In this document: positions 5,867-41,942 of the stretch, piece after piece | Position numbering within the stretch: the stretch's first letter is position 1 | Layout of the letters: each line of letters starts with the position of its first letter | Source: Acidobacteriota bacterium | Lineage (GTDB): Bacteria > Acidobacteriota > Thermoanaerobaculia > Thermoanaerobaculales > Sulfomarinibacteraceae | Assembly: GCA_013152895.1 (NCBI GenBank) | Contig: JAADFN010000040.1 | Span: forward strand, 1-41,942 | Reading direction: 5' to 3' | Length of the DNA: 41,942 nt | The notes under the pieces: generated by a model | Seen by the model: only the letters and a program-made list of their open reading frames with translations | Database searches by the model: none | What the model was told of the DNA's origin: nothing | Translations under genes and position numbers: made by a program

Positions 5867-5874
5867 TCCATCCC

Positions 5875-17749: not shown

Positions 17750-17801
17750 TTGACGCGCATCAAAGACGCCGTTAGGATGCCCCTTGTGAAAATGGCCACA
17801 T
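17750..17801 (+). promoter_or_regulatory. nuo cluster 1 promoter with partial Rex site
   Basis: TTGACG (17750-17755) and TAGGAT (17773-17778) are 17 bases apart and 35 bases before nuoA. TTGTGAA at 17784-17790, right at the expected transcription start, is an exact half of the Rex operator (TTGTGAA-N4-TTCACAA). The other half, GCCACAT at 17795-17801, matches only 4 of 7. Weak repression or binding by Rex is possible. Confidence 0.55.
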
Positions 17802-18757: not shown

Positions 18758-18767
18758 CGGGGGACCC

Positions 18768-20081: not shown

Positions 20082-20089
20082 GAGTTACC

Positions 20090-21679: not shown

Positions 21680-22718
21680 TGCCATCGTCACGCTGATCAA
21701 GCTGGCCGTCGTCATCGGGGTGCTCTTGACCACCGTGCCAATCATGGTCTGGGTGGAGCGCCGCGGTTCCGCACTGATTCAGGATCGTCTCGGCCCCAAC
21801 CGCGTCGGTCCGTGGGGTCTCCTGCAGCCCGTCGTCGATGCCGTCAAGCTGATTACCAAGGAGAACCTTGTCCCCGACGGGGTCGATCGTTTTCTCTACA
21901 TGCTGGCCCCCGCCATCGCGCTCGCCGTCGCTCTTTCGACGTTCATCGTGGTTCCCTTCGGATACGGGAAAGGCCTGACGCTCTTCGGGTACAAGGTCCA
22001 CGGGTTCATCGTCGCTCCAGATCTCAACATCGGGATCCTCTACATTTTCGCCCTGGCGGCGTTCGGCATCTACTCGATCGTGCTGGCCGGCTGGTCGTCG
22101 AACAACAAGTACTCGCTCCTCGGCGGCATTCGTTCGTCGTCACAGATGATCTCCTACGAGCTGGCCATGACGATTTCCGTCGTGGGCGTGATGATGGCGA
22201 GCTCGTCGTTCAGGCTCGACCACATCGTGATGGCGCAGACCGGAACGTGGTTCGGATTCATCCCCAAGTGGAACGTCTTCCCCCAGGTCATCGGCGCCAT
22301 CACCTTCATGGTGGCCGCATTCGCCGAAACGAATCGCCTGCCGTTCGATCTCCCCGAGGCGGAGGCCGAGCTGGTCGCGGGATATCACACCGAGTATTCG
22401 TCGATGAAGTTCGCGTCGTTTTTCATGGCCGAATACATCAACCTGGTCACGTCGTCCTCGCTGATCGTGCTCCTGTTCTTCGGAGGATGGACGCTCCCCG
22501 GGGTGGCCACGCCGTCCGGGTGGGTCGGCGCTATCTTCTCCCTTGTCGTCTTTGCCGTGAAGGTGGCGTTCTTCCTGTGGTTCTTCGTCTGGGTCCGGTG
22601 GACGCTCCCCCGTTTCCGCTTCGATCAACTGATGGCGCTGGGCTGGAAAGTCATGATTCCCCTGGCCGTCGTCAATTTCCTCTGGATCGGCATCGCGATG
22701 GCGCGCGGGATCCTGTAG
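21669..22718 (+). CDS. nuoH: NADH-quinone oxidoreductase subunit H (copy 1)
   Basis: 349 residues, eight or so membrane helices. NuoH anchors the peripheral arm and forms the quinone channel. Landmarks are VWVERRGSALIQDRLGPNRV and the conserved acidic loop AETNRLPFDLPEAEAELVAG followed by HTEYSSMKFASFF. GGAGGT precedes ATG at 21669. In this cluster it lacks its usual partners NuoB, C, D and I. Protein similarity to copy 2 (37877-38923) is clear but only moderate. Confidence 0.95.
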   Translation: MWADAIVTLIKLAVVIGVLLTTVPIMVWVERRGSALIQDRLGPNRVGPWGLLQPVVDAVKLITKENLVPDGVDRFLYMLAPAIALAVALSTFIVVPFGYGKGLTLFGYKVHGFIVAPDLNIGILYIFALAAFGIYSIVLAGWSSNNKYSLLGGIRSSSQMISYELAMTISVVGVMMASSSFRLDHIVMAQTGTWFGFIPKWNVFPQVIGAITFMVAAFAETNRLPFDLPEAEAELVAGYHTEYSSMKFASFFMAEYINLVTSSSLIVLLFFGGWTLPGVATPSGWVGAIFSLVVFAVKVAFFLWFFVWVRWTLPRFRFDQLMALGWKVMIPLAVVNFLWIGIAMARGIL

Positions 22719-22727
22719 GAGGACCTG

Positions 22728-23228
22728 ATGGTGACGTACGTCTTTCTCGCTGCAGCGGCCCTGGCGATCGTCTTCGGTATCCTGGCGATCGCGCACCGGA
22801 GCCCGATCATCAATGTCCTGTCGCTCGTGGTCGTCTTTTTCGCCATGGCGGCGATCTACGCGGTCCTGGGGATGGACTTCCTCGCGGCCATTCAGCTCAT
22901 CGTCTACGCCGGCGCGGTTCTGGTTCTCTTTCTCTTCGTCATCATGCTGCTCAACATTCGTTCCGTCGACCGTCTCGGGAGCGGGAGGCGGCTCCAGGCC
23001 GTTCTCGGCGTCGTGATCTCGATCGCCATCGGGGTCGCAGCGGTTTTGGCTATCGCCACTCTGACCCCTGCGAACGGGGCCGTGGCGCCGGGCAGCGGAC
23101 AGGGCACCGCGTTCCCCATCGGCCGCAGTCTGATGACGACTCATCTCCTTCCGTTCGAGCTGGTTTCACTCCTTCTCGTGGCGGCCCTCGTGGGCGCCCT
23201 GGTCCTGGCCAGAAAGGAGACGCGATGA
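22728..23228 (+). CDS. nuoJ: NADH-quinone oxidoreductase subunit J (copy 1)
   Basis: 166 residues, five membrane helices. The third-helix region LGMDFLAAIQLIVYAGAVLV and FLFVIMLLNI are diagnostic. NuoJ couples quinone reduction to the proton path. nuoI, which usually comes before nuoJ, is missing here: nuoJ follows nuoH by 9 bases. Its stop overlaps nuoK (ATGA). Confidence 0.95.
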   Translation: MVTYVFLAAAALAIVFGILAIAHRSPIINVLSLVVVFFAMAAIYAVLGMDFLAAIQLIVYAGAVLVLFLFVIMLLNIRSVDRLGSGRRLQAVLGVVISIAIGVAAVLAIATLTPANGAVAPGSGQGTAFPIGRSLMTTHLLPFELVSLLLVAALVGALVLARKETR

Positions 23229-23569
23229 ACCCCACCATGATTCCGATCCCCTCGGCCTGGATCCTCTACCTTTCAGCCGTCCTGTTCGTGATCGGGGCGA
23301 TCGGCGTGCTGTTGCGCCGCAACGGGATTTCCATCTTTCTTGCGCTGGAGCTCATGCTCAACTCCGCCAACCTCGCTTTTGCCTCGTTCGCGTTCCGTTT
23401 TGCCGGCCAGGGCGGCCACGCGGCCTCGGCCATCAACGGCCAGATCTTCATCTTCTTCATCATCGCCGTCGCTGCCGCCGAGGCGGCGGTCGGCCTGGCG
23501 CTGTTCATCGCGATGTATCGCCGTAAGGAAACGATCGACGTCGACCGTTTCAACATCTTGCGCTGGTAG
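23225..23569 (+). CDS. nuoK: NADH-quinone oxidoreductase subunit K (copy 1)
   Basis: 114 residues, three membrane helices, MrpC-like. The two conserved membrane glutamates are in LALELMLNSANLAFASF and VAAAEAAVGLALF. Somewhat longer than copy 2 (100 residues) because of an extended N-terminus (MNPTMIPIPSAWIL). AGAAAGGAG precedes the ATG. Confidence 0.94.
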   Translation: MNPTMIPIPSAWILYLSAVLFVIGAIGVLLRRNGISIFLALELMLNSANLAFASFAFRFAGQGGHAASAINGQIFIFFIIAVAAAEAAVGLALFIAMYRRKETIDVDRFNILRW

Positions 23570-23577
23570 GAGGTTCC

Positions 23578-25563
23578 ATGCTGGGCTCCCTCTGGATCAT
23601 TCCGCTTCTCCCGCTCACGGGCTTTGTGCTGAACCTGCTTCTCGGGTGGCTCAAGGCCCGCAAGAGCGTGGTCAACGTCGTCGGCATCGGATCGGTCGGG
23701 CTCGCGACGATCGCCACGTACTGGGCCATCATCGACTACCTCGGCCAGCCGGCCAAGGTCGTGGTCGAGCACTACTTCACATGGATCTCGGCAGGAAAGA
23801 TCACGGTCAACGCCGCATTCCAGTTCGATCCTCTGACAGTGGTGATGGTCGCCTTCGTGACGTTCGTCGGATTCCTCATTCACGTGTACTCGATCGGCTA
23901 CATGCACGGGGAAAGCGACACCTCCTACGCACGGTTCTTCGCCTACCTGAACCTGTTCATGTTCTCCATGCTGATCCTCGTTTTCGGTTCGAGCCTCCCC
24001 CTGATGTTCGTCGGCTGGGAAGGCGTCGGGCTCTGCTCGTACCTGCTGATCGGTTTCTACTTCGACGATGAATACTGCGCCGCGTCCGGAAAGAAGGCGT
24101 TCATCGCGAACCGGGTCGGCGATGTCGGGTTCCTCCTCGGGATATTTGCGACCTTTGCCATCTTTGGATCCGCCGATTTCACGACGTTCCTCCCAGCGGC
24201 CGCGGCCCATCCGCAGCAGTACGCGGGATGGGCGACCGCCATCGGATTGTTACTGTTCGTCGGCGCCGTCGGGAAATCGGCGCAGATCCCGCTGTACGTC
24301 TGGCTGCCCGACGCGATGGCGGGCCCGACACCCGTCTCGGCGCTGATCCACGCTGCAACGATGGTGACTGCCGGCGTCTACATGGTCGTACGGTGCAACG
24401 TCATCTACCGGATCGGGCCGGCCGCCCTCCTCGTCGTCGCCATCGTCGGCGGGATCACCGCGCTCTATGCGGCGACCATCGGCATGGCGCAGAACGACAT
24501 CAAGAAGGTCCTCGCCTACTCCACCATCTCGCAGCTCGGCTACATGTTCCTCGGCGCCGGAGTCGGGGCCTTCAGCGCGGCCATCTTCCACGTCGTCACC
24601 CACGCGTTTTTCAAGGCGCTCCTCTTCCTCGGCGCCGGCTCGGTGATCCACGCGTGCAGCGGGAACCAGGACATGCGGACGATGGGCGGTTTGAAGAAGA
24701 TCATGCCGACGACGTACTGGACGTTCATGGCGGCGACCCTGGCGATCTCGGGCATCTTCCCGTTCGCCGGGTTCTTCTCCAAGGACGAGATCCTCGGCAA
24801 GACATTCGCCGCCGGCGCTTCGAACCTCAACGGGTTCGGCTGGGTGTACTACATCCTGTGGTTCCTCGGGATCGCGGCGGCGTTCATCACGGCGTTCTAC
24901 ATGTTCCGGCTCGTCTACATGACCTTCCACGGGGAGTTCCGCGGAACCGAAGAGGAGAAGCACCACCTGCACGAGTCGCCGTGGACGATGACGCTGCCGC
25001 TGCAGGTGCTTGGCGTTCTTTCGATCGTCGGGGGGTTGATCGGGATCCCGAAGCTGATGACCGGTCATGCAAGCTGGAACCTGATCGAGCATTTCCTCGA
25101 TCCAGTCGTCATTCCCCTGGGTGGCGGTCACGCCGGCGAGATGGCGGCCGAGATCAGCCATCACGCGGTCAGCCCGGGCGTCGAGTGGCTGCTGTTGCTG
25201 ATCTCGCTGTCAATCGCGATCTCGGGCATCCTGGTGGCGCGGTCGTTCTACTACGGCGAGCGTGCATTCGAGAAGCCGCGACAGTTCGCCGAACGATACC
25301 CGCTCCTGTACAAGCTCGTCCTGAACAAGTACTACGTGGACGAGATCTACGGCGCCGTCGTCATTCAACCTCTTTACCGGATCTTCAGGTTCTGCTGGAA
25401 GGCGATCGACGCTGTCATTATCGATGGGATCCTCGTCAACGGCTCCGCATTCATGACGGAGCTGACCGGCGACATTCTGAGATTCCTGCAAACCGGCAAT
25501 GTGCGGAACTACGCCCTCTCGGTGGCCATGGGCGTGCTTCTTCTCATTGTCATTCTCTGGTAG
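23578..25563 (+). CDS. nuoL: NADH-quinone oxidoreductase subunit L (copy 1)
   Basis: 661 residues, a Mrp-antiporter-type proton pump subunit with a long C-terminal lateral helix. Landmarks are VGWEGVGLCSYLLIGFYF, GPTPVSALIHAATMVTAGVY and HVVTHAFFKALLFLGAGSVI, including the conserved membrane lysines. From roughly residue 130 to 590 it is strikingly close to copy 2 at 34343-36454, most of all around 24721-24990, while both termini differ. It starts 9 bases after nuoK. Confidence 0.96.
   Translation: MLGSLWIIPLLPLTGFVLNLLLGWLKARKSVVNVVGIGSVGLATIATYWAIIDYLGQPAKVVVEHYFTWISAGKITVNAAFQFDPLTVVMVAFVTFVGFLIHVYSIGYMHGESDTSYARFFAYLNLFMFSMLILVFGSSLPLMFVGWEGVGLCSYLLIGFYFDDEYCAASGKKAFIANRVGDVGFLLGIFATFAIFGSADFTTFLPAAAAHPQQYAGWATAIGLLLFVGAVGKSAQIPLYVWLPDAMAGPTPVSALIHAATMVTAGVYMVVRCNVIYRIGPAALLVVAIVGGITALYAATIGMAQNDIKKVLAYSTISQLGYMFLGAGVGAFSAAIFHVVTHAFFKALLFLGAGSVIHACSGNQDMRTMGGLKKIMPTTYWTFMAATLAISGIFPFAGFFSKDEILGKTFAAGASNLNGFGWVYYILWFLGIAAAFITAFYMFRLVYMTFHGEFRGTEEEKHHLHESPWTMTLPLQVLGVLSIVGGLIGIPKLMTGHASWNLIEHFLDPVVIPLGGGHAGEMAAEISHHAVSPGVEWLLLLISLSIAISGILVARSFYYGERAFEKPRQFAERYPLLYKLVLNKYYVDEIYGAVVIQPLYRIFRFCWKAIDAVIIDGILVNGSAFMTELTGDILRFLQTGNVRNYALSVAMGVLLLIVILW
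24721..24990 (+). repeat. near-identical inverted copy within nuoL 1
   Basis: This 270-base part of nuoL copy 1 aligns without gaps to the complement of 34997-35266 in nuoL copy 2, with about 14 mismatches in my hand alignment. It contains an uninterrupted 71-base identity (24841-24911). Such identity at silent positions is not seen between the other duplicated nuo genes. Confidence 0.85.
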
Positions 25564-25575
25564 TCGGAGGCGATT

Positions 25576-27078
25576 GTGCACATCGAGCACCTGCTGACCT
25601 TCGTGACGCTTGGACCTGCCGCCGGTGCGCTGATCCTGACCCTGATCCCGGGACGGCTCGAGAGAATCCAGCGCTGGGCGGCTCTCCTGATCTCGCTCGT
25701 TGAGTTTGCCCTCTCCACCCTGCTGTGGGTGAATTTCAACCCCGATGTCGCCGGGTTCCAGCTTCAAACGGCCAAGATTCCGTGGATTCCTCAGCTTGGA
25801 ATCTCGTACCACCTCGGCATCGATGGCATCTCCCTGCTGCTCGTGCTGCTGACGACCCTGCTGATTCCGGTCGTCATCCTGGCCTCGTGGCACTCGATCA
25901 GCGAGCACGTCAAGGCGTTTCACATGTCGTTGCTGATGTTGACGACGGCCATGATCGGCGCGTTTCTCGCCCTCGACGTGTTTCTCTTCTACATCTTCTG
26001 GGAGCTGATGCTGATCCCGATGTACTTCATCATCGGCGTCTGGGGCGGCCCCCGTCGCATCTATGCCGCCGTCAAGTTCTTCATCTACACGATGGTCGGC
26101 TCGGTGCTCATGCTCGTCGGCATCCTGTACCTGGCCTGGTTCAGCCACGCCCAGAGCCACGTCTGGTCGTTCGCCTACTCCGACCTGCTCAGGGCCGGTC
26201 ACCAGCTGCCGATGGGGCACTCCTTCTTTTCGAGCCCACAGATGCTCGTCTTTGCCGCCTTCGCCCTCGCGTTCGCGATCAAGGTCCCGATGTTCCCGTT
26301 CCACACGTGGTTGCCCGATGCGCATACCGAGGCGCCGACCGGAGGCTCCATCATCCTGGCCGGTGTCCTTCTGAAGCTCGGAACGTACGGGTTTCTCCGG
26401 TACAACCGGGTGCTGTTCCCCGCGGCGTGGCACGCGTTCGTGCCGTTGATCCTCACCCTGGCGGTCATCGGTATCCTGTACGGAGCGTGGGTCGCCCTGG
26501 TGCAGCCCGACATGAAGAGGCTCGTCGCCTACTCGTCGGTCAGTCACCTCGGGTTCGTCATGCTGGGCCTTGCCGCCGGAACGATCGCCTCGACGCAGGG
26601 CGCCGTCCTTCAGATGGTCAACCACGGGCTTTCGACGGGGGCTCTCTTCCTCCTCGTCGGCGTCCTCTACGAGCGGCGGCACACGCGGATGATCGCGGAT
26701 TTCGGCGGGATCGCGAAGGTCGTCCCGGTCTATACCGGCCTTTTCCTCCTCGTGACGCTCTCGTCCATCGGCCTTCCCGGGCTCAACGGGTTCGTCGGGG
26801 AGTTTCTCATCCTGGCCGGGACGTGGCACAGGTACCCCGTCGCAGCCATCCTTGCGGCCTTCGGGCTGATCTTTGGCGCCATCTACATGTTGTGGATGGT
26901 GCAACGCGTCTTCTGGAACCCGTTCGCCCACAAAGAAAACGTGTCGCTCAAGGACGTCAATCTCCGCGAGGTTCTCGCCGTGGCGCCCCTGATCATCTTT
27001 ATCGTGTGGATCGGCGTTCACCCGACAACGTTCCTGTCGCCCATGGAGGCGGCTGTACGTTCACTCCTGATGCATTAA
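25576..27078 (+). CDS. nuoM: NADH-quinone oxidoreductase subunit M (copy 1)
   Basis: 500 residues, an antiporter-like proton pump subunit. Landmarks are FYIFWELMLIPMYFIIGVWG (with the conserved Glu), FPFHTWLPDAHTEAPTGGS and VNHGLSTGALFLLVG. It starts with GTG; GGAGG five bases before it supports this. Clearly homologous to, but well diverged from, copy 2 (32714-34327). Confidence 0.95.
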   Translation: MHIEHLLTFVTLGPAAGALILTLIPGRLERIQRWAALLISLVEFALSTLLWVNFNPDVAGFQLQTAKIPWIPQLGISYHLGIDGISLLLVLLTTLLIPVVILASWHSISEHVKAFHMSLLMLTTAMIGAFLALDVFLFYIFWELMLIPMYFIIGVWGGPRRIYAAVKFFIYTMVGSVLMLVGILYLAWFSHAQSHVWSFAYSDLLRAGHQLPMGHSFFSSPQMLVFAAFALAFAIKVPMFPFHTWLPDAHTEAPTGGSIILAGVLLKLGTYGFLRYNRVLFPAAWHAFVPLILTLAVIGILYGAWVALVQPDMKRLVAYSSVSHLGFVMLGLAAGTIASTQGAVLQMVNHGLSTGALFLLVGVLYERRHTRMIADFGGIAKVVPVYTGLFLLVTLSSIGLPGLNGFVGEFLILAGTWHRYPVAAILAAFGLIFGAIYMLWMVQRVFWNPFAHKENVSLKDVNLREVLAVAPLIIFIVWIGVHPTTFLSPMEAAVRSLLMH

Positions 27079-27090
27079 GGAGGCAGGATC

Positions 27091-28533
27091 GTGCCAACGC
27101 AATCTGATCTTCTTGCCGTGGCGCCCGAGCTGGTCCTCATCGCGGGCGCTGGCGTTCTCCTTATCCTCGACGCATTCCTCCCGAAGCTCAGGCGGATCGC
27201 CTCGGAGCTGACGTTGCTGACGGCGGTTGGAGCCGCGTGGGCGTTGCTCGCCCTGCCCCACCAGGGACTGGTCTGGAGCGGGATGATGCGCGCGGACACC
27301 CTCTTCGTCCTGGTCAGCCTCTGCCTCCTCGTCGCCCTGTTCCTGTGTGCATGGATGGCGGGTCCCTACCTTCACCGGGCTGGGAAAGAGACCGGCGAGT
27401 TTTACGCGCTCCTGATCTTCGCCACGGCCGGAGCGATGATCATGGCAGGCTCGATCGACCTGCTCCCGCTCTTCCTGGGACTGGAGCTTCTCTCCATCGC
27501 GCTGTACGTGCTCAACGCCTTCTTCAAGGACATCGACGTCAGCCTGGAAGCCGGTCTCAAGTACTTCATCGTCGGCGCATTCGCCGCGGCCTTCACCGCC
27601 TACGGGATCGCGCTTCTGTACGGCGCCACCGCCACGACGAACATCGAGGCGATGGGGCGCATACTCGCGGCCGGCGCCACCGTTACTCCCATCCTCATCG
27701 TCGGTTTCGCCATGGTCGCCGGAGGGATGGCCTTCAAGCTGGCGCTCTTCCCCTTCCACGGCTGGGCGCCGGACGTGTACCAGGGTAGCCCGACGCCCGT
27801 CACGGCGTTCCTCTCCGTCGTCCCGAAGGCCGCCGCGCTGATCGTTCTCCTGCGTTTTGCAACGAGTTTCGACCTGCTCCACATGGGGCACAGCTGGATC
27901 TGGGCCGCTGGGATCGTCGCCGTCGGCTCGCAGACGCTCGGGAACATCGTCGCGATCGTGCAACGCGACATCAAACGGATGCTCGCCTACTCCGGTATTG
28001 CGCACATGGGCTACGCCATGATCGGCGTCATCGTCGCCGGAACCGCCGGCAGCACCGCGGTCCTGATCTACATCGCGGCGTACACAGTGATGAACATCGG
28101 CGCATTCTCCGTCATTGCATTGATGTCTGAAAACGAGGCCGAGCCCCACCTGATCTCTGACCTGGCGGGGCAGGGATGGTCCAGGCCTCTGACCTCACTG
28201 GCGCTTGCAATCTGCATGTTCTCACTCGCCGGCGTACCCCCCTTCGCAGGGTTCGCCGCGAAGTTCTTCGTCTTCCGTTCCGCCGTTGACCAGGGGTTGA
28301 TCTGGCTCGCGGTTCTCGGCGTCATCAACTCGCTGATCTCTGCGTTTTATTACCTGCGGGTCGTCTACACGCTCTACATGCGACCGCTGCCCCGGCGGGT
28401 GCCGGACTTCCTGTCCTCACGGGCTATCGGCGCCGTTGCCGGCGTATCCGCAGCCCTCGTCGTTCTCATCGGCCTGTATCCCACGTGGCTGCTCTCCGCG
28501 GCTCACGCGGCGGCACGATTCCTTGTCAGGTGA
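27091..28533 (+). CDS. nuoN: NADH-quinone oxidoreductase subunit N (copy 1)
   Basis: 480 residues, antiporter-like subunit next to NuoK. Landmarks are GLELLSIALYVLNAFFKDID, LFPFHGWAPDVYQGSPTPVT and MLAYSGIAHMGYAMIGV. It starts with GTG, with AAGGAGG before it. Followed after 6 bases by rex, so the two are almost certainly on one transcript. Confidence 0.95.
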   Translation: MPTQSDLLAVAPELVLIAGAGVLLILDAFLPKLRRIASELTLLTAVGAAWALLALPHQGLVWSGMMRADTLFVLVSLCLLVALFLCAWMAGPYLHRAGKETGEFYALLIFATAGAMIMAGSIDLLPLFLGLELLSIALYVLNAFFKDIDVSLEAGLKYFIVGAFAAAFTAYGIALLYGATATTNIEAMGRILAAGATVTPILIVGFAMVAGGMAFKLALFPFHGWAPDVYQGSPTPVTAFLSVVPKAAALIVLLRFATSFDLLHMGHSWIWAAGIVAVGSQTLGNIVAIVQRDIKRMLAYSGIAHMGYAMIGVIVAGTAGSTAVLIYIAAYTVMNIGAFSVIALMSENEAEPHLISDLAGQGWSRPLTSLALAICMFSLAGVPPFAGFAAKFFVFRSAVDQGLIWLAVLGVINSLISAFYYLRVVYTLYMRPLPRRVPDFLSSRAIGAVAGVSAALVVLIGLYPTWLLSAAHAAARFLVR

Positions 28534-28539
28534 CATAAT

Positions 28540-29202
28540 ATGTCTTTGCTTCGAAGTAACTTCGACGTCAATTCCATCTCGGCCCTCACCATCGCCCGGC
28601 TCTCGATCTATCTCCGCTGCGTCGAACGGCTCGCCGCTCTGGGCGTCGAAACTGTCTCGAGCCAGGAGCTGGCGCGGCGCTTCAATCTCAACCCCGCCCA
28701 GATCCGCAAGGATTTCGCGTACTTCGGCGAGTTCGGCGTCCGCGGCGTTGGCTACAACGTCGTCGAGCTTCGCTCCTACCTGCGCGAGATCCTCGGCCTC
28801 GACATGGAGCATCGTCTCGTTATCGTCGGGGTCGGGAACCTCGCCATGGCCCTCGCCAACTATTCCCGGTTCACGGGCCAGTCTTTCCTGATCGTGGGCA
28901 TGCTCGATGCCAATCCAGAGAAGATCGGCATGAAGACGCCGAACGGCTTACTGGTCGAGGATGCCGCCAGGCTCGCCGAGATCGTTCCCCAGAGGAACGT
29001 CGAGATCGGGGTCATCACCACCCCCGCCCCCGCCGCCCAGAAGGTGTGCGACGCCATGGTTTCAAGCGGCCTGCGAACGATCCTCAACTTTGCGCCCGTC
29101 CAGGTCAAGGGGCCGGAAGGCGTGCTCATCCGTTCCGTCGATCTCCGCATCTATCTCGAGGAGCTGGCCTTCTACCTGACCCACGGCATCCCCGAATCCT
29201 GA
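28540..29202 (+). CDS. rex: Redox-sensing transcriptional repressor Rex
   Basis: 220 residues. Rex binds operators when NADH is low and releases them when NADH rises. The N-terminal winged helix (about 10-80) contains VSSQELARRFNLNPAQIRKD, FAYFGEFGVRGVGY; the Rossmann domain starts at about 92 with VIVGVGNLAMALANY; the C-terminal swapped helix includes DLRIYLEELAFYLTHG. The third glycine of the usual GxGNLG is Ala102 here. It lies 6 bases after nuoN1, so its level follows cluster 1 transcription. A close Rex-type operator sits in the cluster 2 promoter. Confidence 0.96.
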   Translation: MSLLRSNFDVNSISALTIARLSIYLRCVERLAALGVETVSSQELARRFNLNPAQIRKDFAYFGEFGVRGVGYNVVELRSYLREILGLDMEHRLVIVGVGNLAMALANYSRFTGQSFLIVGMLDANPEKIGMKTPNGLLVEDAARLAEIVPQRNVEIGVITTPAPAAQKVCDAMVSSGLRTILNFAPVQVKGPEGVLIRSVDLRIYLEELAFYLTHGIPES

Positions 29203-31252: not shown

Positions 31253-32710
31253 TTATCCGAGCCCGAGAGCGTGCATTCCGCTCTGGGCAATCCCGACCAC
31301 CGGCGCCGGGTAGACACCGATCGCCAGCGTCACGAAAACGCATACGCCGATCATCGCATCGAGCCAGCGATCCTGGACCAGCGCCGCGGGCTCATCCGCC
31401 TCACCATCCTTGAGGTACATCTCGACCACGATCCGGAAGTAGTAGTACAGGCTGACTGCAGACATGATCACCGCGATCACGGCCAGCCACACGTACCCCG
31501 CCTCGACCGCCGACGAGAACACGTAGAGTTTCCCCATGAAGCCGGCGGTGGGAGGAATGCCGGCCAGGGAGAGCATGAAGATCAGCATTCCCGCAGCCAC
31601 CCCGGGATGGCGTTTCGCCAGCCCGGCGTAGTCGCTGACAAGCTCGCCCGCGTACCCCCGCGTTTCCAGCATGATCACGAAACCGAACGCTCCAAGATTC
31701 ATGAAGGTGTAGATCAGCATGTACACCATGACCGACCACAGTCCCATGACCGTCCCGGCCACGATGCCGATCAACGCGTACCCGGCGTGCGCGATCGAGG
31801 AGTAGGCCAGCATGCGCTTGACGTTGTCCTGCGTCAGGGCCGCGATGTTTCCGTAAATGACGGTCGCTGCCGCCGCGACCCACATGACGATCCGCCACTG
31901 GGCCAACTCGGGATGAAACGCTCCCAGGAAGAGCCGCAGGAACATGGCGAACGCCGCCGCCTTCGGACCCACCGAGATAAAGGCCGTCACCGGTGTCGGG
32001 GCGCCCTCGTACGCGTCCGGCGTCCACACGTGGAACGGGACCGCAGCCACCTTGAACAGCATGCCGAAGCCGACGAGAATAATCCCGAGGTTGAGCGTCC
32101 AGTTGGCCGTGTGCGTGACCGTCAAGGCCGCCCTGATCTCGCCAAGATCAAGCGTCCCAAGCGCGCCGTAGATGAGCGAGATACCGTAGACGAGAATACC
32201 GGAGGAGAGCGCGCCGAGCACGAAATACTTGACTGCTCCCTCGTTCGACTTGAGCTCGAGCTTGAAATACCCGACGAGCACGTACTGGGAAAGCGCCATC
32301 AGCTCCAGGCCGACGTACAGGCTGACCAGGTTCGCGCCCGAGGCCATGATCATCATGCCGAGCGTTGCAAACAGGATGAGGGCGTCGAACTCGCCCGGGG
32401 AATACTCCGAGCGCTCCAGGTACCCTGCCGACATCAGCAGCACGATGCCGGACGCCGTCATTGTCAGGAGCTTGAAGTACACGGCGAATGTATCGACGAA
32501 CAGCATGCCGCCGAGAATCGTGTGCGGGCCGCCCGCGGGCCGCCCAACCGCCCAGATCAGGACGGCGCTCACCGCCAGCGAGCCGACCGCCAACAGGCTC
32601 AGGGTCCTTGCGCCACGCTTTCCCAGTGAAATCCCCGCCAGGAGAAGCGTGAAGCCGGCAACGGCGAGAAAGATCTCCGGCAAGAAAGGTATGAACTGGC
32701 TGAGGCTCAT
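31253..32710 (-). CDS. nuoN: NADH-quinone oxidoreductase subunit N (copy 2)
   Basis: 485 residues. Landmarks are YVGLELMALSQYVLVGYFKL, AVPFHVWTPDAYEGAPTPVT and MLAYSSIAHAGYALIGIVAG. Moderately similar to copy 1 (27091-28533). Last gene of cluster 2; atpZ follows after 214 bases on the same strand. Confidence 0.95.
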   Translation of the reverse strand: MSLSQFIPFLPEIFLAVAGFTLLLAGISLGKRGARTLSLLAVGSLAVSAVLIWAVGRPAGGPHTILGGMLFVDTFAVYFKLLTMTASGIVLLMSAGYLERSEYSPGEFDALILFATLGMMIMASGANLVSLYVGLELMALSQYVLVGYFKLELKSNEGAVKYFVLGALSSGILVYGISLIYGALGTLDLGEIRAALTVTHTANWTLNLGIILVGFGMLFKVAAVPFHVWTPDAYEGAPTPVTAFISVGPKAAAFAMFLRLFLGAFHPELAQWRIVMWVAAAATVIYGNIAALTQDNVKRMLAYSSIAHAGYALIGIVAGTVMGLWSVMVYMLIYTFMNLGAFGFVIMLETRGYAGELVSDYAGLAKRHPGVAAGMLIFMLSLAGIPPTAGFMGKLYVFSSAVEAGYVWLAVIAVIMSAVSLYYYFRIVVEMYLKDGEADEPAALVQDRWLDAMIGVCVFVTLAIGVYPAPVVGIAQSGMHALGLG

Positions 32711-32713
32711 GGC

Positions 32714-34327
32714 CTACTCCCCCTGAGATTGTGCGGCCGACGGGGGCGCGGTTTTCGTGATGGCCGCGATCCGTTGACGCGCTTCGTTTGGTTGCTGCGT
32801 GCCCCGCTCCACCCGCTGGAGAATCCGGTCGACGGAGGGCGCCATACGGTCGAAGAACGGCTTCGGATACAGGCCGATCCAGAACGCGATGATCACGAGC
32901 GGGATCAGCGTCCACTGCTCGCGCAGGGTGAGATCCTTGAGGTCCTTGTTCTTCTCGTTCGTCACCTCACCGAAGAACACCCGCTGGTACATCCACAGCA
33001 TGTAGGCAGCGCCCAAGATAATGCCAAGCGCGGCGAACACGGCCCATACCCAGTTGGCCTTGAAGATGCCCATCAACGTCGTGAACTCGCCAACGAAACC
33101 GTTGAGCGTCGGCAGCCCGATCGACGACATGGTCATCACGGCGAACAGCGTCGCATAGATCGGCATCACCTTGGCCAATCCCCCGTACTCGGCAATCATG
33201 CGGTTGTGCCGGCGCTCGTAGACGAGGCCGACGAGCAGGAAGAGGGCGCCGGTCGACACACCGTGGTTGACCATCTGCAGGATCGCGCCCCGAACCCCCG
33301 CCGGGTCGAGGGCGAAGAGCCCGACCATGATCAGGCCCATGTGGGAGACCGACGAGTACGCGACCAGCTTCTTCATGTCCTTCTGGGCCATCGCCACGAG
33401 AGCGCCGTAGATGATGGCGATGATGCCGAGCGCCGCGATCCACGGGACCGCTTTCAAGGTTGCCTTGGGGAGCATCGGGAGAGAGAACCGCACGAAACCG
33501 TACGTCCCCATCTTCAGCAGGACGCCGGCCAGGATGACCGAGCCTGCCGTCGGGGCCTCGACGTGGGCGTCAGGAAGCCACGTGTGGAACGGCCACATCG
33601 GGACCTTGATGGCGAACCCGATGAAGAATGCCAGGAAGACCCAGAACTGCAACGACCCCGGGATCTGGGGCGCGATCGCATAGAACTGCGGAATCGAGAA
33701 GGTCGCCGGGTTTCCGAGACCGTGCAGACCGATGGCGGCGAGACCCGGACCGTTGTAGAAGTAGAGGGCCAGGATGCCGATCAGCATCAGGACCGAGCCG
33801 AACAACGTGTACAGGAAGAACTTGATCGCCGCGTACAGCTTGCGGGGGCCGCCCCATACGCCGATCAGGAAGTACATCGGAACCAGCATCACTTCCCAGA
33901 ACACGTAGAACAGGATGAAGTCGAGCGACATGAAGACGCCCAGCATCCCCGTGCCCAGCAGGAGCAGGAAAACGTAGTACTCCTTCACCCGGTTCGTGAT
34001 CGCCGTGAACGACGAGTACACCGCGATGAAGGTCAGGAGGGTTGACAACAGGATCAGCAGGATGGCGAACCCGTCGACCCCGAAGTAGTACTGGACCCCC
34101 AGCGAAGGAATCCACTTCCCCCGAATCACGAACTGGAACTCGGGGCCGGATGGCCTGTAGAGGAACCAGAGCGGTACGGCCGCAAGGAAGTCCAACCCCG
34201 CGACCACCGTGGCCACCGCCTTGATGGCCTTCGTGTTCTCCCGGTTGATCCCAAAGACGATCAGCAGGGCTCCTGCCAACGGCAGGTAGCAGATGATGTT
34301 GAGCAGCTGGTGTTGGAGAAAATCCAT
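32714..34327 (-). CDS. nuoM: NADH-quinone oxidoreductase subunit M (copy 2)
   Basis: 537 residues. Landmarks are FYVFWEVMLVPMYFLIGVWG, WPFHTWLPDAHVEAPTAGS and VNHGVSTGALFLLVGLVYER. A polar C-terminal tail of about 40 residues (rich in Gln, Ala, Thr) is absent from copy 1. Its stop lies 3 bases before the nuoN2 start. Confidence 0.95.
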   Translation of the reverse strand: MDFLQHQLLNIICYLPLAGALLIVFGINRENTKAIKAVATVVAGLDFLAAVPLWFLYRPSGPEFQFVIRGKWIPSLGVQYYFGVDGFAILLILLSTLLTFIAVYSSFTAITNRVKEYYVFLLLLGTGMLGVFMSLDFILFYVFWEVMLVPMYFLIGVWGGPRKLYAAIKFFLYTLFGSVLMLIGILALYFYNGPGLAAIGLHGLGNPATFSIPQFYAIAPQIPGSLQFWVFLAFFIGFAIKVPMWPFHTWLPDAHVEAPTAGSVILAGVLLKMGTYGFVRFSLPMLPKATLKAVPWIAALGIIAIIYGALVAMAQKDMKKLVAYSSVSHMGLIMVGLFALDPAGVRGAILQMVNHGVSTGALFLLVGLVYERRHNRMIAEYGGLAKVMPIYATLFAVMTMSSIGLPTLNGFVGEFTTLMGIFKANWVWAVFAALGIILGAAYMLWMYQRVFFGEVTNEKNKDLKDLTLREQWTLIPLVIIAFWIGLYPKPFFDRMAPSVDRILQRVERGTQQPNEARQRIAAITKTAPPSAAQSQGE

Positions 34328-34342
34328 CGTCGTCCCCGCTCC

Positions 34343-36454
<2,112 letters not shown>

Positions 36455-36458
36455 GCGC

Positions 36459-36761
36459 TTAACCTCTCATCTCGTTGGCGTCGTCCAGGTTGACGGTCCG
36501 TTTCAGCCGTTCGAGCGCGATGATCAGGCCAAGCCCGATCGCCGCCTCGGCTGCCGCGACCGTGATGATGAAGATCGCCATGATCTGCCCGGAGAGGTTG
36601 CCCAACCGGTCGGAGAAGGCGATCAGGTTCAGGTTGGCGGCGTTGAAAATCAGCTCCAGCGACATCAGGACGGTGATGAAGTTGCGCCGGACCATCAGGC
36701 CGATCACGCCGAGCACGAACAGGATCAGTGACAGGATCACGTAGTGCATCGCGCCGATCAT
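36459..36761 (-). CDS. nuoK: NADH-quinone oxidoreductase subunit K (copy 2)
   Basis: 100 residues, the standard length. The membrane glutamates are in LMSLELIFNAANLNLIAF and VAAAEAAIGLGLII. The start overlaps the nuoJ2 stop (ATGA). An ATG four codons later would also serve. Confidence 0.95.
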   Translation of the reverse strand: MIGAMHYVILSLILFVLGVIGLMVRRNFITVLMSLELIFNAANLNLIAFSDRLGNLSGQIMAIFIITVAAAEAAIGLGLIIALERLKRTVNLDDANEMRG

Positions 36762-37330
36762 GGCTCCATCCTCCCCCCTCTACCTTCGAGGCCGGCGTCT
36801 TTCCTGCCAAAGATGATGGCGCCGATCATCGCCACGAGAAGGACGACCGAAACGATTTCAAACGGGACCAGGAAGTGGCGATACAACATCCAGCCGATCG
36901 CCTCCGTGTTTCCGACGACATGTCCCTGAACCGTCTGCAGCGCGGCCGCGCCCCCGCCGCGGCGCCCCAGCGAACCGGCCAGGACGCCGAATGCGATCAG
37001 CGCGCCGAGCACGACGCCCCCGATCACGGCCAGCGGCGCACGCCGCGAGAGGAAAGCGCTCTCGGGGCTGACCCTCTTGACGTTGACCAGCATGATCACG
37101 AAGAGGAACAGAACCATGATGCCGCCGGCGTAGACCAGGAGTTGGACCGCGGCAAGGAACTCGGCGTGCCGCAGCACGAAGAGACCGGCCACCGCCAGGA
37201 ACGTGCCGAGCAGCGAGAGCGCGGAGTGCACCGGGTTCTTGAAGGTGATCACGCCCACGCCCCCGGCCACCGCCAACACGGCGAGCACGTAAAAAACAAT
37301 TGCGACAAAGTGGGCCGAAAGAAACGCCAT
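36758..37330 (-). CDS. nuoJ: NADH-quinone oxidoreductase subunit J (copy 2)
   Basis: 190 residues. Key region FLAAVQLLVYAGGIMVLFLF then VIMLVNVKRVSPES. The start overlaps the nuoI stop by one base (TGATG), giving the usual I-J-K order that cluster 1 lacks. A Gly/Arg-rich C-terminus follows the last helix. Confidence 0.94.
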   Translation of the reverse strand: MAFLSAHFVAIVFYVLAVLAVAGGVGVITFKNPVHSALSLLGTFLAVAGLFVLRHAEFLAAVQLLVYAGGIMVLFLFVIMLVNVKRVSPESAFLSRRAPLAVIGGVVLGALIAFGVLAGSLGRRGGGAAALQTVQGHVVGNTEAIGWMLYRHFLVPFEIVSVVLLVAMIGAIIFGRKDAGLEGRGGRMEP

Positions 37331-37872
37331 CAAGCCGCCTCCCCTCCGCCGGTTTTCGTGCCCGCCAGATTGCCCGGCTCCTGGCCCTGCGCCGGTGACA
37401 CGACGCCCGGAAAGGCCTTGATTCCATCCCAGCTCATCAACCGCTCCTTCGTGAAATAGAGCTCCTCGTTGCGTTCGTAGTTGGCGCCCTCGTACGTCTT
37501 GGTCGTCAGCCAGACCGACTTGGGATGGGTCGGGCACGCCTCTTCGCACAGGCCGCAGAACATGCAGCGCTTGACATCGATGTCGTACCGGTCCACGACC
37601 AGTTTCTTCTTCTTCTTGCCGTCGATCTCCTCGTATTCGGCGTGATCGCGGATGAAAATAATGTTGATCGGGCAGGCGCGCGCACAGAGGTGGCAATCGA
37701 TGCAGCGGTCCACGTCGTAGCTGAAGAGGCCGCGGAAACGCTCCGTCGGCTCCCTTCGCTGCTCCGGAAACTGAACCGTTTCCTTCTTGCGGAGAAAATA
37801 GCCGCCCGTCACCCGAAGACCTGCGAAGAGATCCGTCGGGATCAGCTTGCTGAAGAACTGAGATACCGCCAT
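37330..37872 (-). CDS. nuoI: NADH-quinone oxidoreductase subunit I
   Basis: 180 residues, an 8Fe ferredoxin-like subunit carrying N6a and N6b. Ligands: C57, C60, C63, C67 (CIDCHLCARACP) and C103, C106, C109, C113 (CMFCGLCEEACP). It passes electrons from NuoG to NuoB. A lysine run (GKKKKK) lies between the motifs. The C-terminal 40 residues are not conserved. Only nuoI in the window. Confidence 0.96.
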   Translation of the reverse strand: MAVSQFFSKLIPTDLFAGLRVTGGYFLRKKETVQFPEQRREPTERFRGLFSYDVDRCIDCHLCARACPINIIFIRDHAEYEEIDGKKKKKLVVDRYDIDVKRCMFCGLCEEACPTHPKSVWLTTKTYEGANYERNEELYFTKERLMSWDGIKAFPGVVSPAQGQEPGNLAGTKTGGGEAA

Positions 37873-37876
37873 CGGA

Positions 37877-38923
37877 TCACCCTTTCACAAGCAGAACGCC
37901 AACGCCCACGATCACGAGGTTGGCCAGGGAAAGGGGAATGAGCCACTTCCAGCCGACCTGCATCAACTGATCGAAGCGGTAGCGGGGGAACGTTCCCCGG
38001 AACCACATGTAGACGAAGATGAAACACGCCACCTTCACGGCGAACCAGATCACCGGAGGGATGACGCCCAGGAAGCTCAACCAGGCGACGTTCGGAAATG
38101 GCTGCAGCCATCCGCCGAAGAACATGATCGTCGCCAGCGACGAGACCACGAGCATGTTGGTGTACTCGGCCAGGAAGAAGAAGGCGAACTTCATCCCCGA
38201 GTACTCGGTGTGGAAGCCAGCGACGAGCTCCGACTCGGCTTCCGGCAGATCGAACGGGTTCCGGTTGGTCTCGGCGACGCCGCAGATGAAGTAGATGCCG
38301 AGCGCCAGGATCCCGGGAATGAAGAACCAGAGGTGCGCCGCCTGCTGGGCCTCGACGATCTTCACGAGGGACAGCGACCGCGCCATCAGCAGGACCGCAA
38401 TGATCGCGAAGCCCATCGGCACCTCGTACGACACCATCTGGGCCGCGGACCGCAACCCCCCCATCATGGAGAACTTGTTGTTCGAGGACCATCCGCCGAG
38501 AATGATGCCGAACACCCCGATCGAGCTGATCCCGAGGACGAAGAGCAGGGCGATGTTGATATCCGTCACGTACGGTGGCATCGCCTTGGGGAGCAACCCG
38601 AAGAGGTCGGTCGCCGGCGCGAACGGAATCACCGAGAACGCCAGCAACGCCGGCACCATGATCATCGCCGGCGCCAGCATGAACACGGCTTTCTCCGCCT
38701 TCGCCGGGATCAGGTCCTCCTTGGCGAAAAGCTTGAGACCGTCGGCGATCGGCTGGAGCCAGCCCTTCGGCCCGACGCGGTTCGGCCCGAGGCGCACCTG
38801 CATGTAGGCCAGGATCTTGCGCTCGGCGAACGTCAGGTACGCGACGACGAGCAAGACGACGGCCAAGATGACAACGATCTTGACGATCGGAATGACGATG
38901 AACTGGATCAAGGGTGCCTGCAT
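37877..38923 (-). CDS. nuoH: NADH-quinone oxidoreductase subunit H (copy 2)
   Basis: 348 residues. Landmarks: TFAERKILAYMQVRLGPNRV, GWLQPIADGLKLFAKEDLIP, and the acidic loop AETNRNPFDLPEAESELVAG. Here it is embedded in the normal D-H-I context, so it should be the partner of the NuoBCDI module. Moderately similar to copy 1. Confidence 0.96.
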   Translation of the reverse strand: MQAPLIQFIVIPIVKIVVILAVVLLVVAYLTFAERKILAYMQVRLGPNRVGPKGWLQPIADGLKLFAKEDLIPAKAEKAVFMLAPAMIMVPALLAFSVIPFAPATDLFGLLPKAMPPYVTDINIALLFVLGISSIGVFGIILGGWSSNNKFSMMGGLRSAAQMVSYEVPMGFAIIAVLLMARSLSLVKIVEAQQAAHLWFFIPGILALGIYFICGVAETNRNPFDLPEAESELVAGFHTEYSGMKFAFFFLAEYTNMLVVSSLATIMFFGGWLQPFPNVAWLSFLGVIPPVIWFAVKVACFIFVYMWFRGTFPRYRFDQLMQVGWKWLIPLSLANLVIVGVGVLLVKG

Positions 38924-38935
38924 CTCGCCTCCCGC

Positions 38936-40060
38936 CTACCTGTCGATCTCGCCGAGAACGATGTCCAGCGTCCCGATGACCGCCACGAGATCCGCCACCA
39001 GCAGCCCCTGGACCATCTCTGGCAACGCCTGAAGGTTGATGAATGACGGCGGACGCACGTGGCACCGGTACGGCGTCGTCCCCTTGGGCGTCGCGACGAT
39101 GAAGTATCCCAGCTCGCCCTTCGGTCCCTCCACGGAGGCGTAGACCATCCCTTCCGGCGAGCGGAGCACCTTGGGTACCTTGGCCATCACAGGCCCTTCG
39201 GGGAGCCTGTCCAGGCACTGTCGGATGATTCGCGCGGACTGGCGCATCTCCTGCATCCGAACGAGGTACCGGTCGTACGTATCGCCGTTGGACCCCACGG
39301 GGATCTCGAAGTCGATCTCGTCGTAATGATCGTACGGAAACACCTTCCGGATATCCCACTTGACCCCGGAGCCGCGCAGGGGCGGCCCGGTCAGCCCCAT
39401 CTCGATGGCTTCCTCGGCGGAAATCACGCCGATGCCGATCGTCCGCCGCTTCCAGATCCGGTTCCCGGTCAGCAGCTGCTCGTACTCGTCCACGTGCTTT
39501 GGAAAACGGTCGATGAAGTCCGAGCACTGATCCACCCAGCCGTCGGGAAGCTCGAATGGAACGCCCCCGACACGCATCGTGTTCAGCGTCAACCGGGCGC
39601 CGCAGTACGCCTCGAACAGGTCGAGGATCTCCTCGCGCTCACGGAAGTTGTAGAAGAACGGCGTGATCGCGCCAAGATCGATCGCGTGGGTCGCCAGCCA
39701 CACCAGGTGAGAGGAGATCCTCCCGAGCTCGGCCAGGATCATCCGGATGTACGCCGCTCGCGGCGGGATCGTGATGCCGAGGAGCTTTTCCATCGTCACG
39801 ACGAAGCCCTGGTTGTTGGTCGCCGCGGCGACGTAATCCAGCCGGTCGGTGTGCGGGATGCACTGGGGGAAGGGCTCCGTCTCGAAGAGCTTCTCCGTGC
39901 CGCGGTGGAGGTAGCCGATGATCGGCTTGGCATCCATGATCTTTTCGCCGTCGAGCTTGAGCATCACGCGCAGCACGCCGTGCGTCGACGGGTGCTGCGG
40001 CCCGAAGCTCAGCTCCATCTCCTCGACGTCGAACAGGGGTTCGAGCGGTCCGCCCATCAT
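38936..40060 (-). CDS. nuoD: NADH-quinone oxidoreductase subunit D
   Basis: 374 residues, the 49-kDa-type subunit that forms the quinone pocket with NuoB. Contains FGPQHPSTHGVLRVMLKLDG (His23 and His27 near the quinone head), GYLHRGTEKLFE and RMILAELGRISSHLVWL. Hydrogenase-type CxxC ligands are absent, as expected for a complex I protein. Slightly short but complete. Overlaps nuoC (ATGA). Only nuoD in the window, not fused to nuoC. Confidence 0.96.
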   Translation of the reverse strand: MMGGPLEPLFDVEEMELSFGPQHPSTHGVLRVMLKLDGEKIMDAKPIIGYLHRGTEKLFETEPFPQCIPHTDRLDYVAAATNNQGFVVTMEKLLGITIPPRAAYIRMILAELGRISSHLVWLATHAIDLGAITPFFYNFREREEILDLFEAYCGARLTLNTMRVGGVPFELPDGWVDQCSDFIDRFPKHVDEYEQLLTGNRIWKRRTIGIGVISAEEAIEMGLTGPPLRGSGVKWDIRKVFPYDHYDEIDFEIPVGSNGDTYDRYLVRMQEMRQSARIIRQCLDRLPEGPVMAKVPKVLRSPEGMVYASVEGPKGELGYFIVATPKGTTPYRCHVRPPSFINLQALPEMVQGLLVADLVAVIGTLDIVLGEIDR

Positions 40061-40695
40061 GCACCCCCCTCTTCCTCAGTCAGTGGCCCGCCCCCTTCGG
40101 GGTAGACATCCGGTTGGACCGCCGCGCCGGTATCGATCCCTTCGACCGGAAAGTCCTTGCGCAGCGGGTGGCCGTTGAAACCCTCCCACAGCAGGATCCG
40201 CTCCAGGTTCGGATGACCGTCGAAGACAATGCCGAACATGTCGTAGACCTCGCGTTCCATCCAGTTCGAGGTCTTCCACACGCCGGTGACAGTGGGAACG
40301 GATTGCTCCTCGCCGGCAACGATCCGCAGACGGATCCGGCGGGAATCGTCGAAGCGGTGCATCCAGTAGATGACGTCGAACCGGCCCTCTTCGCGCTCGG
40401 GCCAATCCACCGCGGTCATGTCCACCAGGAACTTGAAACCCCGTTCCTTCTTGAGGAACCGGCATGCGTCGACCAGCTTGGCGGGATCGATCGTGATCGT
40501 CAGCTCTCCGGCGAAGGCGTCCGCCGAGAGCACGGCGCCCTCGACCCCGGCGGCGAGAGCCGCAACATCCGGATCGTCCATCGCATCGGCGTGTTCCGGC
40601 GTCACCGGCTTGTCCAGCCAGGGCGGTTTCGCCTCTGGCTGCGCCGGCGCGGCGGCCTGATCTTCCGGCTTCGGTGTGTTCTTCTCGTCCGTCAT
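40057..40695 (-). CDS. nuoC: NADH-quinone oxidoreductase subunit C
   Basis: 212 residues, the 30-kDa-type subunit. Conserved core WKTSNWMEREVYDMFGIVFD then GHPNLERILLWEGFNGHPLR, KDFPVEG. The N-terminal about 50 residues are a Pro/Ala/Glu-rich low-complexity stretch not typical of the family. Lies between nuoB and nuoD. Confidence 0.95.
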   Translation of the reverse strand: MTDEKNTPKPEDQAAAPAQPEAKPPWLDKPVTPEHADAMDDPDVAALAAGVEGAVLSADAFAGELTITIDPAKLVDACRFLKKERGFKFLVDMTAVDWPEREEGRFDVIYWMHRFDDSRRIRLRIVAGEEQSVPTVTGVWKTSNWMEREVYDMFGIVFDGHPNLERILLWEGFNGHPLRKDFPVEGIDTGAAVQPDVYPEGGGPLTEEEGGA

Positions 40696-40702
40696 GATGT
40701 CC

Positions 40703-41191
40703 TCACGAGGCCTTGCGGCGTGCGATCGTCATCCGATCGATCTTTCGTTGAAGCTGCATCAGCCCGTACAACAGCGCCTCGGGGCGTGGCGGGCAGCCCG
40801 GCACGTACACGTCCACGGGAATGATGCGGTCCACCCCCTGCGTCACGGCATACGTCTTGTACGGTCCGCCGCTGGTGGCGCACGATCCCATCGCCAGCAC
40901 CCACTTCGGGTCCGCCATCTGGTCGTAGAGACGCTTGATGATTGGCGCCATCTTCTCGCTCACCGTGCCGGCAACGATCATGAAGTCCGACTGGCGCGGC
41001 GTGCCGCGAAACACCTCGGCGCCGAACCGGGCCATGTCGTGCCTCGCGTCGACAACCGCCATCATCTCGATCGCGCAGCAGGCCAGCCCGAACTGCATCG
41101 GCCACAGCGAGCTGCGCCGCGCCCAGTTGAAGATCTTGTCGTACGTGGTCGTCAGAATGTTCTTGTCGAACCGGTCCTCAATCAGGCCCAT
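40703..41191 (-). CDS. nuoB: NADH-quinone oxidoreductase subunit B
   Basis: 162 residues. NuoB holds cluster N2, the last Fe-S centre before quinone. Ligands are the tandem C38 and C39 ([11 protein letters not shown]), C104 (MGSCATSGG) and C133 (VPGCPPRPE). The ATG at 41191 overlaps the nuoA2 end by 10 bases; the frame open upstream is a shadow of nuoA2. Only nuoB in the window. Confidence 0.96.
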
Positions 41192-41538
41192 TCCAGCGCC
41201 CCCCTTCGCCACGCGTAGATGTACCCCACCAGCAGAATGGCGAGGAAGACCACCATCTCGATAAAGCCAAACACGGCCAGCCTGTCGAACATCACGGCCC
41301 ACGGAAACAGGAAAATCGTTTCGACGTCGAAAACGACGAACAGCACCGCGATCAGGTAATAGCGGATGGAGAAGCGCGTGTCGTAGGCCGTCGTCGGCAT
41401 CTTGACGCCGCACTCGTACGGCTCGGATTTGACCGCGTTCGCCGATCCGGCTCGAACCAGCTTGGCCATCAACAACGTAATGATGGGAAAGGAAATCGCG
41501 ACGAGGGTGAAGATGAGAATTGGGATGTACTGGTTCAT
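41182..41538 (-). CDS. nuoA: NADH-quinone oxidoreductase subunit A (copy 2)
   Basis: 118 residues, three membrane helices. The loop motif PYECGVK keeps Cys43, unlike copy 1. [20 protein letters not shown] and [10 protein letters not shown] are diagnostic. First gene of cluster 2, with a G-rich ribosome site (CAGGGGGGGCC) and a strong promoter upstream. Confidence 0.96.
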
Positions 41539-41567: not shown

Positions 41568-41606
41568 ATTGTATCGGTTCGCCCGTCCTTGTCAATCTTT
41601 TCACAA
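41568..41606 (-). promoter_or_regulatory. nuo cluster 2 promoter with Rex operator
   Basis: TTGACA (41590-41595) and TACAAT (41568-41573) are 16 bases apart on the minus strand, 30 bases before nuoA2. Overlapping the -35 box is TTGTGAAAAGATTGACAA (41589-41606, minus strand). It fits the Rex consensus TTGTGAA-N4-TTCACAA at 13 of 14 half-site positions (TTGACAA against TTCACAA). Binding here would block RNA polymerase. The rex gene lies in this window at 28540. Confidence 0.8.
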
Positions 41607-41942
41607 GCCGAGGGCGGAGCAATGGATTCATACCAGTAGCTCTGGGCTGGCCGAAAGAATGGACCGGGGGAGCGTACGTATCGTCCGAGGTACCCGTCCA
41701 TGTGCTTACAACCTTCTTGAACACGGCGAAGAGAGGGAGGAGGCGCTCCTCGTATCTGTCATCCCAAGGGGATGCCTCTTGAGTCACCCCGAGGCGCTTC
41801 CTATTCCTGTCATCCTGAGCACCGTCATGCCCCAAGTGGGGGCATGACGGTGCTCAGGATGACAGGAAGGGGACAGCGGTGGGCGTCTCGCCCATCACGG
41901 CGCGCAGCCCCACTCCAGGCAAGCCAACGCCGAGACCGAAGG
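41607..41942. other. gene-free stretch upstream of nuo cluster 2
   Basis: No supported gene. Open frames here run through palindromic repeats and match nothing I know. The stretch contains two copies of a TGTCATCC motif (41757-41764 and 41808-41815), a small CATCCC/GGGATG hairpin at 41760-41774, and the long palindrome listed separately. The last 75 bases show nothing recognisable. Confidence 0.5.
41806..41866. repeat. perfect 28-bp palindrome (REP-like)
   Basis: Two exactly complementary 28-base arms (41806-41833 and 41839-41866) around a 5-base loop, with partial pairing continuing outward. The arms carry GTCATCCTGAGC, a motif I know from dispersed palindromic repeats in environmental bacteria. 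No T-run on either strand, so not an intrinsic terminator. REP-like elements are the DNA partners of RAYT transposases, and one such transposase lies in this window, but its own ends do not match this sequence. Confidence 0.8.

Follow-up and report, generated by a model that had tools for sequence, protein, structure and literature searches.

A predicted Rex operator over the -35 box of a complex I operon and a candidate Rex regulon in Thermoanaerobaculia (Acidobacteriota)

The NADH-sensing repressor Rex is best known from Gram-positive bacteria. In Bacillus subtilis, Rex and Ndh reportedly form a feedback loop between an NADH-oxidizing enzyme and an NADH sensor; the enzyme of that loop, to judge from the title of the report, is the single NADH dehydrogenase Ndh, whereas the locus described here concerns complex I. 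The Rex regulon of Streptomyces avermitilis and Streptomyces coelicolor includes nuoA1-N1, rex-hemA, cydA, and atp, so that complex I is repressed by Rex, as is proposed here (PMC5355995). In S. avermitilis, the sites at which Rex acts as a repressor of nuoA1-N1 and rex-hemA take in the -35 region (PMC5355995). This region also belongs to the Streptomyces footprints at the nuoA1, atpI, and rex promoters, much like the nuoA2 site predicted below; the rex operon is itself a target, as predicted for nuo cluster 1, and further likenesses are the use of half-sites and, at cydA1, of a site located past the start point (PMC5355995). The two systems also differ. Streptomyces rex is cotranscribed with heme genes and one nuo operon is targeted, whereas here rex ends a nuo operon and complex I is encoded in three loci; moreover, the sites found here are on tricarboxylic acid (TCA)-cycle genes, not on cyd, atp, or hem. 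Another similar arrangement is that of Caldithrix abyssi, where rex is among the genes of an operon for an NADH-linked energy complex and a Rex site with two mismatches lies upstream, but that complex is an electron-bifurcating hydrogenase, not complex I (PMC5317091). The Staphylococcus aureus operator, TTGTGAA-W4-TTCACAA, has the same consensus as the sites discussed here, and mismatched versions are bound with lower affinity; the targets in that organism are mainly fermentation and nitrate respiration genes, unlike those identified here (PMC2883068). A literature search found no earlier report of Rex in Acidobacteriota.

The window (the whole stretch of DNA analyzed, 41,942 nucleotides) contains two nuo clusters and a rex gene (Table 1). 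Cluster 2 lacks nuoE, nuoF, and nuoG, and cluster 1 lacks nuoB, nuoC, nuoD, and nuoI; the subunits missing from cluster 1 are supplied by a third locus on a separate contig (C131). Cluster 1 and the C131 locus are probably both required for the NADH-using complex I; for the cluster 2 complex, the electron donor may be a different one, such as ferredoxin. Just upstream of cluster 1, on the opposite strand, are genes for an Rrf2-family regulator and sufC (16244 to 17556). Upstream of cluster 2, a near-perfect 35-nt inverted repeat with a 5-nt loop (TGTCATCCTGAGC...) spans positions 41799 to 41873; a 13-mer of this repeat recurs in 14 of 343 loci, and the repeat may therefore be a dispersed one.

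Table 1. Features of the nuo loci and of the predicted Rex sites
Feature	Position	Strand	Content or basis
Promoter of nuo cluster 1, TTGACG-17-TAGGAT	17750-17778	plus	Promoter scan
Second Rex-like site, TTGTGAA-AATG-GCCACAT	17784-17801	plus	Over the predicted cluster 1 start point
nuo cluster 1	17814-28533	plus	nuoA-E-F-G-H-J-K-L-M-N
rex	28540-29202	plus	NF003993, 242 bits (cut-off 217); PF06971; last gene of nuo cluster 1
nuo cluster 2	31253-41538	minus	nuoA-B-C-D-H-I-J-K-L-M-N
-10 box of the nuo cluster 2 promoter, TACAAT	41568-41573	minus	Promoter scan
-35 box of the nuo cluster 2 promoter, TTGACA	41590-41595	minus	Within the right half of the predicted operator; promoter scan
Predicted Rex operator of nuo cluster 2, TTGTGAA-AAGA-TTGACAA	41589-41606	minus	Consensus match, genome scan, conservation
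Third nuo locus, contig C131 (L211)	nuoB, 5835-6350		nuoB, fused nuoCD, nuoI

Upstream of nuoA2, which starts at position 41538, an 18-base site agrees with TTGTGAA-N4-TTCACAA at 13 of 14 half-site positions. The half-sites are separated by AAGA, a spacing of N4 with the A/T-rich composition preferred for Rex operators, and the site is the center of a wider inverted repeat, CTTGTGAA..TTGACAAG (41588 to 41607). The TTGACA of the cluster 2 promoter lies within the operator, a repressor-type position, and is followed after 16 nt by TACAAT; the promoter scores 11 of 12, and the scan of the region yielded no other promoter-like match around 41568 to 41606. A preliminary description of this DNA had noted both the single departure from the Rex consensus and the coverage of a strong promoter, and in these respects it was accurate; the span it gave, 41568 to 41606, suits the promoter plus the operator, the operator alone being the shorter interval given in Table 1. 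From its sequence, we predict that this interval is an operator of Rex, and as part of the full explanation developed below, we assign this reading a probability of roughly 0.8.

The one mismatch falls on the fifth base of one half-site, with C in place of G. In the Thermotoga maritima complex, Lys49 of Rex contacts the guanine that corresponds to this base (PMC8836258). In S. aureus, the changes that reduce Rex binding the most are exchanges at positions 4 or 5 (in the numbering of that paper) and altered spacer lengths, and the dissociation constants are 1.2e-7 M for a one-mismatch site and 2.7e-7 M for a three-mismatch site, compared with 5.7e-8 M (PMC2883068). Thus, with one perfect half and one half held in common with the -35 box, the operator would be expected to be moderately weak. 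Because the mismatch exchanges a base contacted by Rex for one needed by the -35 consensus, the sequence can be read as a compromise between repressor and promoter, probably a permanent one in which the operator is somewhat weakened.

The overlap also invites another explanation, namely, that the promoter alone is real and that TTGTGAA, upstream of it, resembles a half-site by chance or is a promoter extension that has nothing to do with Rex. The base that breaks the match in the right half is the very one called for by the -35 consensus, and six of the seven bases of TTCACAA come free with TTGACAA. The left half, however, lies outside both boxes, so the -35 box cannot explain its conservation among relatives. 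The closest named relatives are Acidobacteriota metagenome assemblies labeled Thermoanaerobaculales, Thermoanaerobaculia, or Holophagae. When one relative with intact spacing was taken from each of eight genera (g1, g2, g4, g6, g7, g8, g9, and g10), TTGTGAA was 100% identical in all pairwise comparisons, whereas identity was 57% in the N4 spacer, 40% between the -35 and -10 boxes, and 26%, no more than random, in the 17 nt upstream of the operator. The G of the -35 box that breaks the palindrome is invariant; the box itself is kept in all family f1 relatives listed, and its distance from the -10 box in these is always 16. Conversely, the three genomes of genus g3 keep rex and a promoter, TTGACA-16-TAGAAT, but in all three TTGTGAA is absent before this nuoA2 promoter, showing that the promoter survives without it. 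Most genomes of the sister family f2 retain TTGTGAA but have it placed differently with respect to the boxes: an exact copy is found just downstream of the -35 position in 9 of the 13 promoters seen. A promoter without an operator is accordingly a very improbable account of the site. A generic promoter motif was likewise rejected because, among the sites found in this genome, this arrangement of a Rex-type half-site over the -35 box is limited to nuoA2 and icd, and the g3 promoter does without it.

The preliminary description had made its claim dependent on conservation of the palindrome in relatives that keep the promoter. The two are kept together in 8 of 10 genera; the exceptions are g3, which has no operator, and g5 (G005), in which the spacer is one base longer and the half-sites are 5 bases apart (N5) instead of N4. 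Among the class-level relatives read, the nuoA2 site was seen in G048 only. In family f7, Rex sites were found upstream of nuoB or nuoB-like genes or of nuoG instead of nuoA2 (L153, L154, and L155), which makes the link between Rex and nuo wider than the exact nuoA2 operator and suggests that operators may move between nuo operons.

The presumed repressor is encoded nearby. The product of rex passes the NCBIfam Rex equivalog model NF003993 and also matches solved Rex structures, and the gene is the sole PF06971 match in the genome. It starts 6 nt past the stop codon of nuoN1, with which it is probably cotranscribed, so its description as a cotranscribed gene of cluster 1 probably holds. The position at the end of cluster 1 is conserved in families f1 and f2, and in 22 of 30 rex loci, the gene directly before rex, in the same orientation, is nuoN; the linkage does not hold in g3 and g8 (six loci), and two further loci are cut by contig ends. 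In an alignment to T. maritima Rex, whose DNA-reading residues are Arg48, Lys49, Arg60, and Gly61 (PMC8836258), the equivalent residues R56, K57, R68, and G69 are all present. The NAD(H)-binding loop of Rex in genus g1 reads GVGNLA, that is, GxGxxA rather than GxGxxG, with alanine for the third glycine; among the genomes read, this form occurs in g1 only, and the other genera have GAGNLG. The Asp that follows the second strand is kept, within LDANP.

A second Rex-like site, missed by the preliminary description, lies over the predicted start point of cluster 1. Having three mismatches, it would be inconspicuous by itself, but its sequence is almost unchanged in six genomes (G001, G002, G004, G005, G007, and G009), and it is also seen in families f2 and f5 and in G048; g3 and two genomes of genus g6 (G012 and G015) lack it. 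Its conservation makes cluster 1, and with it rex itself, a probable Rex target. The promoter of the C131 locus contains a half-site, TTGTGAA-N6-TATAAT, about 110 nt upstream of nuoB, which is exact in g1, g5, g9, g10, and some f2 genomes and reads TTGTGAG in g7. The C131 half-site is weaker evidence for Rex control; half-sites can be protected by S. avermitilis Rex (PMC5355995).

To place the nuoA2 site in its genomic context, the whole assembly (2,993,163 bases, 97% complete) was scanned for TTGTGAA-N4-TTCACAA, with the reversed pattern as a control. Nine sites with two or fewer mismatches were found, compared with none for the reversed pattern; the chance expectation from base composition is about 2 such sites and about 0.08 with one or no mismatch. 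Only two sites have a single mismatch, the nuoA2 operator and one on contig C146, so that nuoA2 ranks among the two best matches in this consensus-mismatch scan; the preliminary description had proposed a comparable ranking with a Rex position matrix. On the genome counts and the conservation together, a chance match at nuoA2 was rejected. Sites with two or fewer mismatches precede genes for a 2-oxoacid:acceptor oxidoreductase, isocitrate dehydrogenase (icd), aconitase, and succinate dehydrogenase (sdh). Most f1 genera have kept the oxidoreductase site, and the aconitase site is shared by g1, g5, g7, g9, and g10; the icd site is conserved in g1 and g9 only, and the exact sdh palindrome is found in g1 only. 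Because of this narrow conservation, icd and sdh are weaker members of the putative regulon than nuo, the 2-oxoacid oxidoreductase, and aconitase. In relatives, sites precede genes for glutamate dehydrogenase, 3-hydroxyacyl-CoA dehydrogenase, and another 2-oxoacid:ferredoxin-type oxidoreductase. The positions of the sites, over a -35 box, over a start point, or between the boxes, suit a repressor.

Of the nine sites in the genome, three look spurious or uncertain: one inside the start of a TolC-like gene (C198; L008), one at the mnhF/G overlap (C102:26156; L003), and one adjoining a GGDEF gene (C180; L007). Another site with two or fewer mismatches, at C102:27300-27317 (L004 and L212), overlaps the promoter of an operon that comprises an ArsR-like gene and genes for Mrp antiporter subunits; this operon runs towards a NuoD-like gene at C102:18094-18819.

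Sites of this kind could, alternatively, belong to a regulator of the CRP/FNR family. The CRP core, TGTGA-N6-TCACA, sits inside the Rex consensus; nuo and TCA-cycle genes, the kinds of genes found near the sites, are typical CRP targets; and contig C24 encodes a CRP-like protein with a cNMP-binding domain and an HTH_Crp_2 domain, helix TSRETVSRLINDF (RETVSR). Furthermore, one genome that is 96% complete (G054; L341 and L336) keeps the cluster 1 site, and no rex was found in it beside nuoN or elsewhere. The half-sites themselves, however, have T at position 1 in 43 of 58 cases and A at position 7 in 45 of 58, and in the better half of each site, these frequencies rise to 28 of 29 and 29 of 29; this is the TTGTGAA of Rex and not ATGTGAT, the form of the Escherichia coli CRP half-site. 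The geometry also argues against CRP: the nuoA2 site is centered near -36.5, with a perfect -35 box inside, and not at the class II position of -41.5, and the nuoA1 site is centered near +8, so that the sites show neither an activator position nor ATGTGAT-type half-sites. In S. aureus, the Crp/Fnr-family regulator ArcR does bind sites at several Rex targets in vitro (PMC2883068). Finally, site counts track the presence of rex. The 48 genomes with rex contain 87 sites with one or no mismatch (192 Mb; 0 for the reversed pattern), and the 9 genomes without it contain 2 (38 Mb; control, 2), a difference with a binomial P value of 1.6e-5 across these 57 genomes that ignores relatedness; the comparison leaves out three more genomes for which no rex turned up (G016, together with G017 and G019, both incomplete). 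A CRP/FNR-type regulator is thus unlikely. The operator call is sound as a reading of the sequence, and Rex is well ahead of CRP as the protein concerned, although it is not proven.

The mechanism favored here is that of a Rex regulon, with binding, the response to NADH, and the direction of control taken by analogy from the Rex family. At low NADH, a Rex-NAD+ dimer would sit on the -35 box and block RNA polymerase at the cluster 2 promoter; when NADH rises, Rex would leave. As the product of the last gene of cluster 1, Rex would also act at the promoter of cluster 1 itself; further targets would probably be the nuoB-CD-I locus and several 2-oxoacid and TCA-cycle genes. The result would be a regulon with negative autoregulation, in which a rise in NADH promotes synthesis of complex I and of more Rex, NADH is oxidized, and the promoters close again. 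Complex I, including the operon that encodes Rex, is thus probably repressed by Rex as a regulon, as in Streptomyces, and the estimate given above for the operator applies equally to operator, regulon, and negative autoregulation as a whole.

The preliminary description had drawn a narrower loop, in which Rex from the NADH-accepting cluster 1 represses the other cluster, cluster 2, when NADH is scarce. The elements it started from stand: cluster 2 has a candidate operator, and cluster 1 ends with rex, a position conserved in f1 and f2. The better site is indeed that of cluster 2 (one mismatch versus three). Repression of only the other cluster, however, was not supported. The start point of cluster 1 bears its own conserved site, the nuoB-CD-I locus has a half-site, and sites occur at several TCA-cycle operons. 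Furthermore, in genus g8, one nuoA and one nuoB (those of cluster 2) but no cluster 1 were found, and rex is not beside nuoN; this genus nevertheless has the nuoA2 operator, which is therefore independent of such a loop. A one-way brake of cluster 1 on cluster 2 is accordingly hardly credible, and the control is probably exerted by a Rex regulon that includes its own nuo operon.

The mechanism proposed here is no departure from Streptomyces Rex but a known kind of control. The relatives amount to a natural experiment, since the position of the operator at the promoter differs by family and one genus keeps the promoter without the operator. It is conceivable, albeit speculative, that in Thermoanaerobaculia, Rex is a built-in regulator of a three-locus complex I whose operators are unlike in strength and geometry: one lies over the -35 box, one over the start point, and one is a half-site between the boxes. 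Together with the sites at a 2-oxoacid:ferredoxin-type oxidoreductase, these operators might then fix the NADH thresholds, both of an NADH-using complex I and of one that lacks NuoEFG and possibly uses ferredoxin. If the sites are bound, Rex control of complex I would extend to a major soil phylum, with rex lying within the nuo operon itself.
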